Shown one piece after another: positions 12,285 through 19,749 of a stretch of DNA of 54,534 nucleotides. A program made the position numbers and the translations under genes. How positions within the stretch are numbered: position 1 is the stretch's first letter; each line of letters begins with the position of its first letter. Location of the stretch: the NCBI GenBank assembly GCA_947471985.1, contig CANIZL010000038.1, forward strand, positions 1 through 54,534. Direction: 5' to 3'. A model generated the notes under the pieces. That model was not told the origin of the DNA. It searched no databases and saw nothing but the letters and a program-made list of their open reading frames with translations. This DNA comes from Verrucomicrobiota bacterium. GTDB taxonomy: Bacteria; Verrucomicrobiota; Verrucomicrobiia; Limisphaerales; UBA9464.

Positions 12285-15200
12285 TCACAAATCTTTGGAA
12301 GTCGTTTCTGATTCTACTTCGAGGGTGCCCAAATCGAGGACCGCGCCTTCAGAGTCAACCGGCACCGTGAATTGGAGTCGGGCATTCAGGAGGCGCTTGA
12401 ACTGGGCTCTCTGGATCCCATCGTTCGGCTGAATTGCGTCTGGCACCGAATAACCGAGAAACGCAGTCAAATCGTAGATGCCGGGCGGTACGCCTTCGAG
12501 CGTGAAGCGGCCGTTCTTATCAATCCCAACATTCAGGAGTTTCTCCCGTTGAAGTTGCGCCTGAATCTCCGGCTGCCGGCGCCACTTCATGACTGCTGTA
12601 AGGTTGGTTCGGATTTCGATCGGTGGGAGTGGATGGTGAATCGATTTCGCTCTCCCGTGCCAACGACTGCCGGCAGGAAACACAAAACCAGCTGGAAAAT
12701 GGAGCCGGCCGATAACGCGAGTTCCGCCCCCCAATCGAACGTCGATCAACCCGCCTGCGTTTACATTCACTGATACTTGATCGCCGGCCGGAATCTCCGC
12801 GGTAGATCCGTCCAATTCACCGACAGAATGAACGGAAACGGCATCCCATTGCCCGGGCGGCACGTGCCGGAACGAGACCTGCCCCTGGTCATCTACCGTT
12901 CGAATGGCCTCTCCGAGGTCGATTTTGACGGCCGACGAAGAGATTTCGGACGGATGAATCCAGACCTTTTTGGACGTCGAATTCGAGCCGCCGAATTGGA
13001 CGTTGATCCGTCCCCACGGTTCCAGTCGCAAGACCCGATCCGCTTCAAGTTTGGAACGGCTGACACTGGCGAAGCCCCCCGAATGTACGGCAACGACCTG
13101 ATCGATGCGGCTGTCGGTGGTTAGTGTGACTCGCCCACGTGAATCGGAAGTCTTGAGTTCGGGGATGGGGAAACTGCCGGACAGAATCTGCGCTTCGCCA
13201 AGTCGAATAATGTCGCCCATACGGGCCAGAGCAATCTGGACGTCGGGCGCTGGACGGCCATCGGGAAGGAGCAGAGAAACATCAAATTCGGTCGCTGGAT
13301 GCAATGTCACATTGAGTCGGATTTCGCCCGCAAATCCCTCCATCAAATTGGTCTCCAACGATTGATAGCCGGCGGCTTCGAAGTTGAGCATGTGGCCGAA
13401 ATACTCCAACGGTGGGACCGTGATTGGGAATCGATACGTACCGTCGGAGAATTTCCCGTCATATCCGCGGCTCTCAAATCGCGGGGGAGGCTCCGCGGAA
13501 TCTCCACCGAAAAGCTCGTGCGTCCGCGCCGGATACCCCAATTGCACTTTGCCATTGGCAATAGGGCGACCGGATTTTGAGTCCGTAATGCTTCCGTAGA
13601 CTACCGCATTCGTGATCGAGCGCATTAGGACCACGGGATGTTCCTTCCCGTCGGCGGCGAGGTTGATCTCGGTTCGCTTATATCCAATCGCTTCGATGAT
13701 AAATCGATTCGTTCCGACCGGCGATTCCAGCCACTCGGCTCGACCCTCTCCGTCGGTTCGGCCGAAAAACCCCACCTTGGGTTTCGCGGAAATCTCGGCC
13801 AACTCCGGCTCGGATCGACCCGACTCGGAACGGTACACATACCATGCATTGCTGATGGCCCGCCCGTCCGAACTCACGACCTGGAATCGCAATTGCTGGG
13901 CGGGTCCCAGCCGCAGTCGAATGGGTTGGTTGGTCGGAGAAACCGTGCGAAGCCAAACGGCACGGGGAGCGAAATTCGGAGAGGATGCGGTCAGTAATAC
14001 ATTGCTGCTGGGGCAGCCTTGGAGTTCGAATCGTCCGTCGGCATTGCTTTGGGCGATCCTCTCCGGGGAATGAATGGAGTCTTCAATCTTGACGGTCGCC
14101 CCCAGGATGGGATCTCCAGTCTCGTCTTCGACGTAGCCATGAATCTTCCGAGCCGGGCGAACCTGGGCGACATGTCGTCCGGATTGGATCAGTTCAACGC
14201 TCTCGGAGGATTCGGCCAGGTTCAGTTCCTCCGAGGACAGATACCCGGTGCTGGTGGCCCTGATTCTCACCCGTCTCAATACGTCGCCGGCGATACGGGA
14301 ATGACTCCAGTGGCCGAAACTATCGATCGAAGCCCAGGCCGATCCGAAATCGTGACTTTCGGTTGCCAAGGGATCCATCCCATTGGATAGCAGAATGAAC
14401 TCGATACGCCCGCCGTCTAGGGGCTTGCCTTCCGGATCGATTACTCGGCCACTCAACGGAATGCCTGGATCCAACCGCACCACATAGTTGGTTGGGATTT
14501 CATCCCCCTGGCCGGGCTGCCAATGGAGCCGGGTATCGGCCCACCTGTCGACTTGGGAAACCAGTTCCAGGGTGTCGAGCGGCGGGTCTAGCGGAATTCG
14601 AAGTTGGCCCTGCCGATTCGCCGTAAAGGTGAATCGCACAGGATTTTCTCCGAGCTGTTTCCAGGCCAGGTAAACGACCGACACGTTAGCCACTGGTAGC
14701 CCGGTCGCCCGGTCGATAAATTCCAGACGGAGAATTCTGTCGGAGGTGTCGAGCGCGGCGGGATCGGTTTCGGCGTCCGGGTTGCCGGCGGACTGAATTG
14801 TCGCTGGAGTCGTCACCGAAGAGGAACTCGCCGTCGAGAGATTCGTTCCGAGCCTGGCCGATGATTCCGCCGCACGGACCGAATGTAAGCTGGCCGTTCG
14901 CCGAGTCAGTACCAGGAGCAGTCCCGTGACCAAGACCAGAGTGACGGACGTCCGTGCAAACTTGTTACGGACTAGCTTGAGTGCCCAAGAGGAACGGACC
15001 CCACCGCGGCCGGGCGTGGTCACCCGCCCGAGCAAGCCCGCCGGTGCCGGGCTAACTGCATGGCTTTCCATCGCCAGTCCCAAGGCGATGGCCGTGGAGG
15101 TAACTCCCCGATGGCTCAACGCCGTGTGCAGTTTAGTCAGCGCCCGATCCACTCGCATCCGGGCGGTATTCTCGGCCAATCCCAAACGAGCGCCGACCTC

Positions 15201-16055: not shown

Positions 16056-16087
16056 CGGACTCGCCGACTAAAAGGTCAGCGGTACCT
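16056..16087. repeat. Solitary copy of the 32-bp extragenic motif (copy a)
   Basis: This 32-bp segment starts CGGACTCGCCGACTAAAA and ends GTCAGCGGTACCT. It is almost identical to segments at 16293, 17668, 17782, 17844 and 19718, all in the same orientation. It contains the short dyad GACT...GTC and a KpnI-like GGTACC. It has no preceding composite unit of its own. Confidence 0.75.
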
Positions 16088-16130
16088 GGGCCACCGGTTT
16101 TTCAACCGCGTGAGGTGGGGTTTGCGTGCG

Positions 16131-16324
16131 GGAGGGGAACTTTGGGTGCGTTTTGGTTCTTGGTTCTTGGTTTATCGCTCCCCGTTGGGGCGCGGGAAAT
16201 CGGAGGGGCGTTACCCAGCCTGCTGGGCTGGGCTAAGGAATGTCGCACCTTTGGCGCTGGGGGATGGGGCAGATACGGCTTGTGGCCGGGGGCGGACTTG
16301 CAGACTAAAAAGTCAGTGGTACCG
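16131..16324. repeat. Composite hairpin-rich extragenic repeat, unit I
   Basis: The order of elements is: a GAACTTTGGGTGCG leader; a double 7-mer GGTTCTT; hairpin 1 at 16176-16194 (CGCTCCCC, loop GTT, GGGGCGCG); hairpin 2 at 16214-16232 (CCCAGCC, 5-nt loop, GGCTGGG); a spacer with TTTGGCGCTG; and the 32-bp motif at 16293-16324 (CGGACTTGCAGACTAAAA...). The same order recurs at 17456-17699 and 19545-19749. Sequence between the hairpins diverges while the stems are kept, which suggests a structured element rather than a random duplication. Confidence 0.75.
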
Positions 16325-16496
16325 GGGTGGGGCGCTTGTGATGGCCCAATTTTAATTCGCAGCGAAGAAGTGCGTTTTCGTTGGGCTATTCGCTGCCTGG
16401 AGCGCATTCTGGCGGGATTCGGGATTAGGGAAATTGCGTGGCGATTCATGCGCCGGTCTCAGCCAGCTTATGTTTGGTGTTTTCTTGAATGTTTCT

Positions 16497-17411
16497 ATGC
16501 CGAAGGGTTTGTGGGAAAGAGTTGCTGCGCGTTGCGCGGGTGTGGGCCGGCGATGGCGGGCGAGAATTCTCCTGCTGGTCGCAGGTTGTTTTAGCGCTTT
16601 GCCGATTGCGTGCGCGCCGGCGGCGGCGAAGCCGACGGCCGGGGTCGTTCGGCAGTTGGACCACATTTTGATCGCTTCCAGCGACGCCAAGGAGCTGTTC
16701 TTCCTTTTGTCGGAGACGTTCCAATTCCCGGTGGCGTGGCCGATGACGGACTATGGCAACTTCGCCAGCGGTGGGGTGGCGGTAGGGAACGTGAATCTGG
16801 AGATCGTCAAAGACACCGGGAGGGCCGGGGCCGCGGGGAGGGTGAAGTCTCGTTGGGCGGGGTTTGCGCTCGAACCGGAGCCGCTGCGGACCAGCGTGCC
16901 GGAACTGGACGCGCGGGGTATCCGACACGGTACTCCGGCGCCGTTCAAGTCGGGTTTGTTTACCACACGTTGGACGACGGTCGGTTTGCCGGAGGTGTCG
17001 GGGGATGCTTCGGAGGTCTTTTTGTGCGAGTTCGCCGAGGACGTGGCCCCGCGGCGCCGGCTTTTGCGGGAGCAATTGCAGGCGCGGGGCGGGGGACCGT
17101 TGGCGGTGCAGTCGGTCCGGGAGATTGTGTGCGGTGCCCGGGAGGTGACGGGAATGCGCTCGCGCTGGGCGAAGTTGCTGAATCCGATCCCGGCGTCCGG
17201 ACCGGGGTTTTGGTCGATCGGAGCGGGTCCGGGGATCCGCGTCATCGAAGCGGAAAGTGAGGGAATCCAGGGGTTGGTGATTCAGGTGAAGTCTTTGGAA
17301 CCGGCGCGTCGTTATCTTCAGGAGCGCGGGCTTCTGGAGGGCGGGCAGACGAACTCGATCACGTTGGGTGGGCCGCTTTTGGAGGGGTTGGGTATTCGGC
17401 TGGTTGAGTAG
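16497..17411 (+). CDS. Exported VOC/glyoxalase-like domain protein
   Basis: This protein of about 304 aa is counted from the ATG at 16497; the frame is open further upstream to a TTG at 16434 and an ATG at 16470, and no start has a clear ribosome-binding site. The N-terminus has two Arg (GRRWRARILLLVAG) before a hydrophobic stretch ending ACAPAAA, so a signal peptide is likely. The mature part opens with LDHILIASSDAKELFFLLS and continues GNFASGGVAVGNVNLEIV, typical of the first beta-alpha-beta module of the vicinal-oxygen-chelate fold. A second half (GIQGLVIQVKSLEPARRYL) repeats the pattern. One His in LDHI and one Glu in NLEIV fit metal-ligand positions of the family, but the substrate is unknown. 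It lies between two copies of the composite repeat. Confidence 0.7.
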   Translation: MPKGLWERVAARCAGVGRRWRARILLLVAGCFSALPIACAPAAAKPTAGVVRQLDHILIASSDAKELFFLLSETFQFPVAWPMTDYGNFASGGVAVGNVNLEIVKDTGRAGAAGRVKSRWAGFALEPEPLRTSVPELDARGIRHGTPAPFKSGLFTTRWTTVGLPEVSGDASEVFLCEFAEDVAPRRRLLREQLQARGGGPLAVQSVREIVCGAREVTGMRSRWAKLLNPIPASGPGFWSIGAGPGIRVIEAESEGIQGLVIQVKSLEPARRYLQERGLLEGGQTNSITLGGPLLEGLGIRLVE

Positions 17412-17455
17412 GTGTTGAAGACTCCGTAGGGGGCGGGGGACGCAAATTGCGGCGC

Positions 17456-17699
17456 GGAAGGGAACTTCGGGTGCGTTCTTGGTTCGTCGTTCGTCGTTCG
17501 TCGTTCGTCGTTCGTCGTTCGTCGTTCGTCGTTCGTCGTTCGTGGCTTATCGCTCCCCGGTGGGGCGCGGGGAATTTGGTGCCGCTACCCAGCGCGATGG
17601 GCTGGGCTGACGAATGACGCAGCTTTGGCGCTGAGGAACTGGTGGCAGAAGCGTATTGCGCCAGAGACGGACTCGCCGACTAGAAAGTCAGCGGTACCG
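17456..17699. repeat. Composite hairpin-rich extragenic repeat, unit II (with expanded 7-mer tract)
   Basis: It has the same order as unit I: leader GGAACTTCGGGTGCG, a 7-mer tract, hairpin 1 (CGCTCCCC GGT GGGGCGCG), hairpin 2 (CCCAGC...GGGCTGGG, slightly eroded on the 5' arm), spacer AGCTTTGGCGCTG, then a 32-bp motif copy at 17668-17699. It differs from units I and III mainly in the 7-mer tract, where two GGTTCTT copies are replaced by a long GTTCGTC array. Confidence 0.75.
17482..17544. repeat. 7-bp tandem repeat, GTTCGTC x 8 plus one imperfect copy
   Basis: Eight uninterrupted copies of GTTCGTC run from 17482 to 17537, and a ninth reads GTTCGTG. At the equivalent place, repeat units I and III carry only two copies of a related 7-mer (GGTTCTT). 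This is the expected form of a slippage-prone, variable-number locus. It lies between genes, so a coding effect is not expected. Confidence 0.95.
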
Positions 17700-17875
17700 C
17701 GGGGGGGCGCCTTCGGCGCAGATCCGCGATCTGGTGCCCAAGGGCGGGGGAACGGGGGGCAGAAAGGTTGCGCGCCGGAGGCGGACTCGCCGACTAAAAA
17801 GTCAGCGGTACCGAGGGGGGGCGCCTCCGGCGCCAAAGCGAGGCGGGCTTGCCGACTTGAAAGTCAGCGGTGCCC
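17668..17875. repeat. Three clustered copies of the 32-bp extragenic motif (copies c, d, e)
   Basis: Copies occupy 17668-17699, 17782-17813 and 17844-17875, all in the same orientation, with start-to-start distances of 114 and 62 bp. Copies c and d are followed by a run of G and then a GCGCC...GGCGC inverted pair (GCGCCTTCGGCGC or GCGCCTCCGGCGC); copy e is followed by a G run only. Copy e is the most diverged (CGGGCTTGCCGACTTGAAAG). The cluster lies just beyond the stop codon of the secreted protein at 17914-19410. Confidence 0.8.
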
Positions 17876-17913
17876 GGGGGGGCGTGATTTGCCCCCCGGG
17901 CGGCGGTGATGGG

Positions 17914-19410
17914 TCAGTTGATTTCGAGCTGGCTCGTCAACACCGTGTTGGTGTTCTTGTCGCGCAGTCCTTTCCATTGCACGCGCATCCCGACCTTTAC
18001 GTAGCTGTCCACCACGTGGCGGACGCCCTTGGAGGTGTTCACCGTGATCGAGGTGTGGGCATCCCAGATCAGTCGCTTGGATCCGACCAGCACGTATCCG
18101 TCGCCGATCGCGGAGATCAGGCCTTTGCTCTCGTCCTTGATCGTGTAGCTGGTGGCCACCGGCGGCGGAGGCGGCGAATTAATATTGAGGCTGGCGCTGG
18201 CGGCAGTGGAACGGCCAAGGGCATCGGTCACCACGATCGATACGGTCGCGGGACCCGCGACGGAGGGCGTGCCCGTGACGGTCACGCCATCGGAAACCAG
18301 ACCGGCCGGCAGGCCGGTGACGTCGACCAGATACGGGGCCACGCCACCGCTGATGGTCACATTGAGCGGAGCCGTGTAACCGACACCGACGGTTCCATCC
18401 GGGAGATTCAAGGCCGAGGCCACCAACGGCAAGGGCGCGGGCTTCACGGTCAGGGAGGTCAACACCAGGCCCTGCGAGGTCACGATACCGGTATAATCGA
18501 CCAGAAGTCCGGTCTTATACCAATTCACCAGTCCACCGAGGAAGGTGGTATTGCCGGGATTCAGATTGGTCGTCCAGAGATGGTCGAGCAGGTTCAAACC
18601 GCCGTTGATGACGATGAATCCCGGATTACGGGCCACGTACGCGGTGATGACGGCGTTGCTGCCGGAGACCGTTTCCACCACCACCGGCGGCGCGTTGTCG
18701 ATGACTTCGAAGGCATTGTCACCCACGCTCGCGTCATTGGCGATCACGCCGCCTTGCAGAATCGGCTGGCCACCATAATAGGCGCCGTAGGGCAGGTAGC
18801 CCACGACCGCGCCGCTGGCATCGAGGACGGGCTCACCCGAGGTGGTCCGGTCGTGAACCGCCGGAACGACCCAACCGGTTACACCTTGCGGGTACGATTG
18901 ATTTGAGACGTCTGAGAGCAGCAACGTGTATTTCGCACCGACCGTCAGGGCAATTCCCGCGGCGCCGAAATCGGCCTCGACGTAGCCGCTGAACGGGGCG
19001 GTCAAAGTCTGGATATTGGAATAAAGGACCGGGCCCCCTGAACCTTCGCCGACCAGCAGATCCAGCCGCACGGAGACGGAGGGCGCGACGGCATAGGGAT
19101 AGGAACCCACGGCGATCTGGCCGGGATAGACGGTGGCGAGCCAGGCGGTGAAGGAGTCTTCATCGGACAGGTAGATTCCGCCGCGCACGTCGGAGGCCGT
19201 GGCGGTGAAGCTCTGGCCAATCGGCGCATGATTGAAATCGTGGCCGGACGAGGAGGTGGGTGGAAACGACAGATCCGTGGTGGCGGCGGTGGCGGTGGCG
19301 GCACCGCAGAGCAGGGCCGAGGCCCAGGCCGTCAGTCGCTGGAACGCCGAGCCGCCCGGATGCGCACGGCGGTGGTCGATGTCGGGGGACGTGGATTGGG
19401 GGGGATTCAT
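17914..19410 (-). CDS. Secreted protein with Ig-like (He_PIG-type) and C-terminal beta domain
   Basis: This protein is 498 aa from the ATG at 19410 (MNPPQSTSPD). A GTG nine codons upstream is also in frame; the ATG is preferred. The signal sequence is around residues 25-45 (LTAWASALLCGAATATAA). The region of about 55-220 resembles a choice-of-anchor or DUF-type beta sandwich. It is followed by a short 'VITAYVARNPGFIVINGGLNLLDHLW' section and a putative Ig fold with the sequence LPDGTVGVGYTAPLNV...LPAGL, the hallmark of He_PIG domains. After a PPPPP linker a C-terminal domain (about 420-498) resembles DUF5666-like beta modules (GDGYVLVGSKRLIWDAHTSI). Function is unknown. It is flanked on both sides by the extragenic repeats. 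Confidence 0.7.
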   Translation of the reverse strand: MNPPQSTSPDIDHRRAHPGGSAFQRLTAWASALLCGAATATAATTDLSFPPTSSSGHDFNHAPIGQSFTATASDVRGGIYLSDEDSFTAWLATVYPGQIAVGSYPYAVAPSVSVRLDLLVGEGSGGPVLYSNIQTLTAPFSGYVEADFGAAGIALTVGAKYTLLLSDVSNQSYPQGVTGWVVPAVHDRTTSGEPVLDASGAVVGYLPYGAYYGGQPILQGGVIANDASVGDNAFEVIDNAPPVVVETVSGSNAVITAYVARNPGFIVINGGLNLLDHLWTTNLNPGNTTFLGGLVNWYKTGLLVDYTGIVTSQGLVLTSLTVKPAPLPLVASALNLPDGTVGVGYTAPLNVTISGGVAPYLVDVTGLPAGLVSDGVTVTGTPSVAGPATVSIVVTDALGRSTAASASLNINSPPPPPVATSYTIKDESKGLISAIGDGYVLVGSKRLIWDAHTSITVNTSKGVRHVVDSYVKVGMRVQWKGLRDKNTNTVLTSQLEIN

Positions 19411-19544
19411 AGTGTGTGTACGATTTCTGTCGGTCACATGTGTTGTCTACGCGTCGATCATGAATCCACGGTGAATCGCCGATGAAAAAGTGTTCATAAT
19501 TCGGGAGAGCCGGGGGGTGTTTTGCGAAAAGTTAAGCGGCAAAG

Positions 19545-19749
19545 GGGGCGTTTAGGTTCTTGGTTCTTGGTTTATCGCTCCCCGTTGGGGCGCGGAGGAT
19601 TGGGGGGCCGAAACCCAGCCCGCTGGGCTGGGCTGGGGAATGGGGGCGGGTGGCAGACCCGCGATCCGGTGCGCAGGGCGCTGGGGGAACGGGGACGGCC
19701 CGTTTCGGGGTTGGGGACGGACTCGCCGACTAGAAAGTCAGCGGTATCG
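19545..19749. repeat. Composite hairpin-rich extragenic repeat, unit III
   Basis: The 7-mer pair GGTTCTT x2 is followed by hairpin 1 (CGCTCCCC GTT GGGGCGCG), hairpin 2 (CCCAGCC CGCTG GGCTGGG) and a 32-bp motif copy at 19718-19749 that ends GGTATCG instead of GGTACCG. The unit fills most of the 374-bp gap between the secreted protein (start 19410) and the end of the cytochrome-WD40 gene (19785). Confidence 0.75.

Follow-up and report, generated by a model that had tools for sequence, protein, structure and literature searches.

A 3.7-kb island (positions 16056-19749) within the 54.5-kb stretch of verrucomicrobial DNA analysed here (hereafter the window) holds three composite repeat units and three solitary copies of a 32-bp motif (the 32-mer), all confined to its intergenic gaps and far above what chance would give. 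An initial annotation had described each unit as a 7-mer tract, two hairpins and the 32-mer, always in this order, and had likened the whole to a REP/BIME (repetitive extragenic palindrome/bacterial interspersed mosaic element) or to a small structured RNA to which no known name could be given. We find that the island is best explained, with a probability that we put at about 0.77, as a BIME-like mosaic of dead or dependent pieces of single-strand transposons, in which the hairpin part (the arm) is the end of an IS200/IS605-like Y1 transposon. The evidence comprises the identity of the modules, their dispersal, the covariation of their stems, the copies of tnpA that other genomes carry between inverted arms, a tnpA remnant likewise lying between arms, and the lack of this tnpA in the host draft. 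The element that had been left nameless can be narrowed to the arms of an IS200/IS605-like (REPtron-like) element plus a REP with a GTAN tag.

Triple-hairpin arms and an associated transposase

Alignment confirmed the order of modules in the three units, and a repeat search recovered all of them as seven repeat families (D1-D7). The units are 83-87% identical across the hairpin part, and hairpin 1 (hp1) has three exact matches in the window, where shuffled sequences average 0.61 at ≤3 mismatches. Directly 3' of hairpin 2 (hp2), units 1 and 2 carry a third hairpin (hp3, CGCACC-TTT-GGCGC) that the initial annotation overlooked and that is replaced in unit 3 by the palindrome GCGGGT-GGCAG-ACCCGC. 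Unit 1 DNA folds into exactly these three hairpins on the minus strand (z -2.6), which the plus strand does not. With a covariance model built from nine own-genome arm copies (R1), we detected 23 arms in the own genome (a 6.38-Mb draft of 180 contigs, 96% complete) while 42 of 58 relatives have one or more, the largest number in any one genome being 76; copy counts here and below come from genome searches together with about 1.08 Mb of contigs, and gene calls from a home-made Markov gene finder. A pattern for the hp2 core with free stem and loop positions matched records from Planctomycetota, Verrucomicrobiota, Victivallales, Acidobacteria/Thermoanaerobaculia, Anaerolineae and Deltaproteobacteria, mostly metagenome-assembled genomes in which binning errors are possible, and including the named strain Brevifollis gellanilyticus (Verrucomicrobiota).

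That the stems are kept while the spacers vary holds for the three local copies, but these alone show little covariation and the evidence for it comes from other genomes. Among 115 aligned arms, 93.2% of cells are paired, changes on both sides occur in 14 of 19 pairs (238 cells versus a shuffle mean of 78.6), and pairing falls to 57-60% when the partner is shifted by one column; covariation is present in all three hairpins. The alignment was fitted to the structure, which biases these counts in that direction, but an effect of this size, together with the plain sequences behind it, leaves little doubt that the covariation is real. Numerous further copies and strong stem covariation, the lack of either of which would have counted against the initial annotation, were both found.

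Genomes of the sister genus contain Y1 genes flanked by arms. The encoded TnpA proteins (148-150 aa) score 64.5-65.7 bits with the IS200/IS605 model NCBIfam NF033573 (cut-off 55), match solved IS200/IS605-type transposases weakly, and reach at most 20.6 bits with the RAYT (REP-associated tyrosine transposase) profile (cut-off 80). The same tnpA family is present in 32 of the 58 relatives, and we found no copy of arm-type tnpA in the own genome. With R1, 21 of 30 tnpA loci have an arm no farther than 150 nt from the gene, and 9 have arms on both sides. To the left of the gene, the nearest arm is a minus-strand one in 11 of 14 cases; to the right, it is a plus-strand one in 13 of 16. The nearest arm thus points outward in 24 of 30 cases, a count that the inverted-repeat layout renders independent of gene strand. 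A different Y1 family, used as a control, yielded one weak hit in 44 loci, away from the gene, and among 78 loci picked by hp2 alone, six had an arm-type tnpA, all six with arms beside the gene. The full arm-tnpA-arm layout occurs in L138 (Planctomycetota), L142 (Deltaproteobacteria) and L192 (Verrucomicrobiaceae), complete units measuring 661 bp in L138 and 673 bp in L192, while in G011:C50 a decayed tnpA fragment (13193-13381) is still framed by arms at 13087-13177 (minus) and 13395-13483 (plus). Across the 58 genomes, 28 have arms and tnpA, 14 arms only, 4 tnpA only and 12 neither (Fisher p = 0.007, uncorrected for phylogeny). An arrangement with a Y1 TnpA encoded between structured ends is thus present elsewhere and lacking in the own genome.

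The commonest arrangement of arms elsewhere is an inverted pair of 175-300 bp, a minus arm followed by a plus arm, with hp1 facing inwards and hp3 outwards. Such a pair lies, in genome G039, inside a miniature inverted-repeat transposable element (MITE) of about 499 bp with terminal inverted repeats (TIRs) of about 32 bp, of which there are at least 17 full or partial copies of 92-99% identity; this MITE was recently amplified in that genome. It is seen in L219:1632-2130 and about 16 other G039 contigs, with 32-bp TIRs (CTATAACGGTTGCCAAAAGTAATTTCCGGATA) and the inverted triple-hairpin pair as cargo.

A separate set of Y1 genes was observed in the own genome (L017, L018, L021, L023-L026), where about 20 copies or fragments encode a transposase of 320-350 aa with a Y---NP motif. 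These genes are flanked by dispersed GTGCCAGGCTCCCTATC-like repeats, distinct from the 32-mer, and many contigs end in such a gene.

The GTAN-tagged palindrome

The 32-mer core has 124 matches in the genome versus 2 for a reversed control, and 119 of 129 copies are extragenic, predicted genes covering 81% of the DNA. Together with the strongly covarying stems and the composite mosaics, these many and mostly extragenic copies bear out the REP/BIME likeness proposed at the outset. On the plus strand, the logo of 123 oriented copies reads CGCCGACT-NRAA-AGTCAGCG followed by NTAC; on the minus strand this is 5'-GTAN-CGCTGACT-TTYN-AGTCGGCG, with the GTAN tag unpaired. The GTA of the tag is kept across the 123 copies (T 96%, A 89%, C 97% in plus-strand reading), and the fourth base varies (GTAC in 79, GTAA in 14, GTAG in 9 and GTAT in 5 of 123), so the tag is not the canonical GT[AG]G. 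In 115 of 123 copies the stem has a C.A mismatch on the plus strand, which corresponds to a T.G wobble when the minus strand is read; sister-genus variants have C-G at this position, and a single more distant match, from another family of the order, has GCAGACT/AGTCTGC. As DNA, the minus strand folds with -6.9 kcal/mol versus -5.0 kcal/mol for the plus strand. Because the minus strand folds better, or as described, in each of the two modules, the structured strand lies on the same side in both.

The 32-mer is nearly confined to the own genome and the sister genus, whereas the arms span phyla; a scan of a genome collection with the exact 32-mer core gave no match in any named genome. The single orientation noted for the island stands, with all six window copies alike, but does not extend to the genome, where 66 copies lie on the plus strand and 57 on the minus, and where C24, C67, C75 and C111 have inverted pairs spaced by about 70 bp. 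In BIMEs, palindromes of alternating orientation are combined with spacers. Copies located between two called genes fall in convergent gaps in 33% of cases versus 23% expected by length, too weak an excess to indicate a role. RAYT/TnpAREP was considered as a partner and rejected: the palindrome, allowing 1 mismatch, is absent from 26 own-genome Y1 loci, as it is from 30 Y1 loci of sister-genus genomes.

Other repeats keep company with the 32-mer. Of 25 sites of a second palindrome, GCCGGTTTTTAACCGGC, 22 have a 32-mer no more than 120 nt away. The same distance separates the motif TTATCCGCGNTATCCGCGGT (about 100 own-genome sites, for example in L062, L060 and L056) from a 32-mer, on either side, in 85 of 102 cases, the resulting arrays having a period of roughly 160-270 bp. 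On own-genome contig C46 (L257:9300-10780) a second type of triple hairpin (CAACCCC-GTTG..., ACCCAGGGT...ACCCTGGGCT, AATCCC-GTT-GGGATT) forms a tandem array in which a 32-mer follows twice; genome-wide, a same-strand 32-mer is found ≤120 nt after 6 of 13 copies of this type, and none in the other orientation.

Modules and genes of the island

The six window copies of the 32-mer start at 16056, 16293, 17668, 17782, 17844 and 19718, all on the plus strand as read; those at 16056, 17782 and 17844 are solitary, as had been annotated. A 28-nt core with ≤3 mismatches has four sites in the window versus 0.00 expected from shuffles. The features are as follows, the strand of a 32-mer being its structured, tagged strand.

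16056..16087, minus: solo GTAN-tagged REP-like palindrome (32-mer)
about 16093-16109: weak companion palindrome CGGTTTTTCAACCG, following the preceding 32-mer
16153..16173, plus: 7-mer tract (TTGGTTC)n of unit 1, a microsatellite
16173..16260, plus: orphan triple-hairpin arm of unit 1 (hp1 16177-16193, hp2 16214-16232, hp3 16245-16257; R1 98.3 bits)
16293..16324, minus: GTAN-tagged REP-like palindrome of unit 1
17475..17547, plus: 7-mer tract (GTTCGTC)n of unit 2, an expanded microsatellite
17548..17634, plus: orphan triple-hairpin arm of unit 2 (hp1 17552-17568, hp2 17588-17606, decayed hp3 17619-17631; R1 85.1 bits)
17668..17699, minus: GTAN-tagged REP-like palindrome of unit 2
near 17707-17719: palindrome GGCGCCTTCGGCGC after the unit 2 32-mer
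17782..17813, minus: solo GTAN-tagged REP-like palindrome
17844..17875, minus: solo GTAN-tagged REP-like palindrome with the tag variant GCAC
19554..19573, plus: 7-mer tract of unit 3
19573..19643, plus: orphan arm of unit 3 (hp1 19577-19593, hp2 19614-19632, hp3 lost, with the palindrome GCGGGTGGCAGACCCGC instead; R1 64.7 bits)
19718..19749, minus: GTAN-tagged REP-like palindrome of unit 3

A search of the own genome with unit 3 showed that the full composite order is confined to the island, matches elsewhere covering either the hairpin part or the 32-mer. Outside the island the modules are found singly or combined in other ways, the hairpin part recurring without a 32-mer on own-genome contigs C6, C20, C30, C40 and C48. 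The composite family of the initial annotation is therefore not one element, since its modules disperse separately, and survives in that composite mosaics do occur. The 7-mer tracts, which are local microsatellites, border the arm on its interior side, in the place that tnpA or the opposite arm would occupy; only the tract of unit 2, at 17475-17547, has expanded to about ten 7-mers, compared with two to three (GGTTCTT) in units 1 and 3. The genes that border the gaps (16497-17411, plus, and 17914-19437, minus) encode proteins without a Pfam match. By eye only, and unverified, the product of 16497-17411 has a glyoxalase/VOC (vicinal oxygen chelate)-like start, RQLDHILIASSD.

Proposed origin of the island and relation to known systems

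We propose that each arm was one end of an IS200/IS605-like transposon of the Y1 (HuH tyrosine) type, about 0.65 kb long and arranged as inverted arm, tnpA and arm. Its TnpA would recognise the hairpins of the arms while the DNA is single-stranded, probably at replication forks, and would move or copy arm-bearing elements. Loss of the interior would yield inverted arm pairs lacking tnpA, and further decay solo arms such as those in the window; arms may have been mobilised in trans, the host copies now probably being immobile orphans that survive where they are harmless, between genes. The 32-mer would be a second element, a GTAN-tagged REP palindrome that settled shortly 3' of the arms, after which the joined arm and 32-mer may have been duplicated locally and the 7-mer tract may have grown through slippage on the interior side of the arm.

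Several observations weigh against this origin. No arm is detectable at 9 of 30 tnpA loci, where diverged arms may escape the own-genome-trained R1, and 6 of 30 nearest arms face the other way; R1 arms occur without tnpA in 14 genomes, and tnpA without R1 arms in 4. Transposition was not seen, and the arms yielded neither an excision junction nor a target site. The G039 pair sits in a TIR-type MITE, hence other movers can carry an arm pair, and since the host genome is a draft, its own tnpA could be missing from the assembly. Finally, with no transposase adjoining the 32-mer, its mobility is argued by analogy.

The order shared by the three window units would also be expected if tract, triple hairpin and 32-mer moved together as a single composite element, as would the same-strand 32-mers behind the second triple-hairpin type (6 of 13, 0 opposite) and the minus-strand folding of both modules. 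We consider this unlikely, as the full composite is found in the island only, most arms lack a 32-mer and most 32-mers lack an arm, and the phylum-spanning distribution of the former is not matched by the latter. Three covarying hairpins with GC-rich stems in gaps next to genes could likewise point to transcripts that act as structured or cis-regulatory RNA (mRNA stabiliser, terminator or small RNA), the other suggestion of the initial annotation. This can hardly be upheld: an Rfam scan gave no match at gathering score, no promoters were found, and terminator-like sites are at the shuffled level. At paired columns A.C outnumbers G.U by 110 to 31 in alignment A4 and about equals it in A6 (21 versus 19); with A.C at least as common as G.U, there is no preference for plus-strand RNA, which should tolerate G.U. 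Moreover, arms have no fixed placement relative to gene orientation, occurring in convergent, divergent and co-directional gaps, and the gene between arms elsewhere is a transposase. Ordinary neutral repeats or an assembly artefact, in which GC-rich, low-complexity gaps have no mobile origin, would account for the microsatellite tracts, simple repeats being common in own-genome gaps. Yet the shuffle expectation is near zero, copies are spread across many contigs, and cross-phylum covariation and the arm-tnpA-arm layout are unexpected under, and already contradict, this highly improbable explanation.

Canonical IS200/IS605 elements have one subterminal hairpin at each end, of the same polarity. 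The arms resemble these elements, and MITE/PATE (palindrome-associated transposable element) derivatives, in the above-cut-off Y1 transposase, the structured ends and the non-autonomous, gene-less forms, and differ in having three hairpins per end and inverted polarity. Like REPtrons, they flank a Y1 gene as inverted arms; unlike REP/REPtron systems, they have three hairpins rather than one, and the Y1 protein scores as IS200/IS605, not as RAYT. The 32-mer is like REPs, BIMEs and REPtrons (PMC8266576, PMC3733652) in its more than 100 extragenic palindromes, 5' unpaired tag, conserved non-Watson-Crick stem position and composites; TnpAREP recognition of REPs is strand-specific, via the 5' tag and stem irregularities (PMC8266576). 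In size, extragenic placement and copy number the 32-mer agrees with REPs, which are extragenic palindromes of 20-50 nt with dozens to hundreds of copies or more, and it fits them except for the relaxed tag, mostly GTAC and not GTAG, and the missing RAYT beside it.

The closest counterpart of the arms is class 3 TnpAY1, an IS200-like single-domain Y1 HuH protein flanked by 'atypical secondary structures' that are present in high copy also without the gene; it has the foot CnGA, occurs in <0.3% of species (Planctomycetes, Acidobacteria, Proteobacteria), and was put forward as a possible evolutionary intermediate from insertion sequences to domesticated REP systems that calls for experiments (Quentin et al. 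2018, PMC6006769). As far as the text of that paper goes, the two share a Y1 HuH protein of about 150-155 aa, the class-1-like (Y...Q) tyrosine motif, flanking high-copy structures and host phyla; the TnpA described here (148-150 aa, YI--Q) is compatible with class 3 as described there. The arm consensus has no CnGA directly 5' of any hairpin, and has CTGA/CTAA between hp2 and hp3. Three covarying hairpins per arm, inverted arms, pairs without tnpA, and hosts in Verrucomicrobiota and other phyla set the arms apart from class 3 as that text has it. The arm/TnpA system is thus probably class 3 or a close relative, to whose published text our data add the three-hairpin inverted arm, its covariation, the tnpA-less inverted-pair form and a wider host range; beyond class 3, the body text of the literature consulted, figures and supplements aside, names no repeat of such architecture. 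We regard as evenly balanced whether arms and TnpA make up a single-strand transposon class in its own right, one that crosses phyla, has three covarying hairpins per inverted end, stands between IS200/IS605 and REPtrons, and gave rise to a large share of the so far unexplained extragenic repeats of Verrucomicrobiota and Planctomycetota, with the GTAN palindrome as a separate REP family. The triple hairpin is abundant in several genomes of these two phyla, and its tie to a transposase assigns it an origin, yields R1 as a search model and offers an enzyme-substrate pair that can be tested, giving body to class 3 TnpAY1 as its paper's text describes it.

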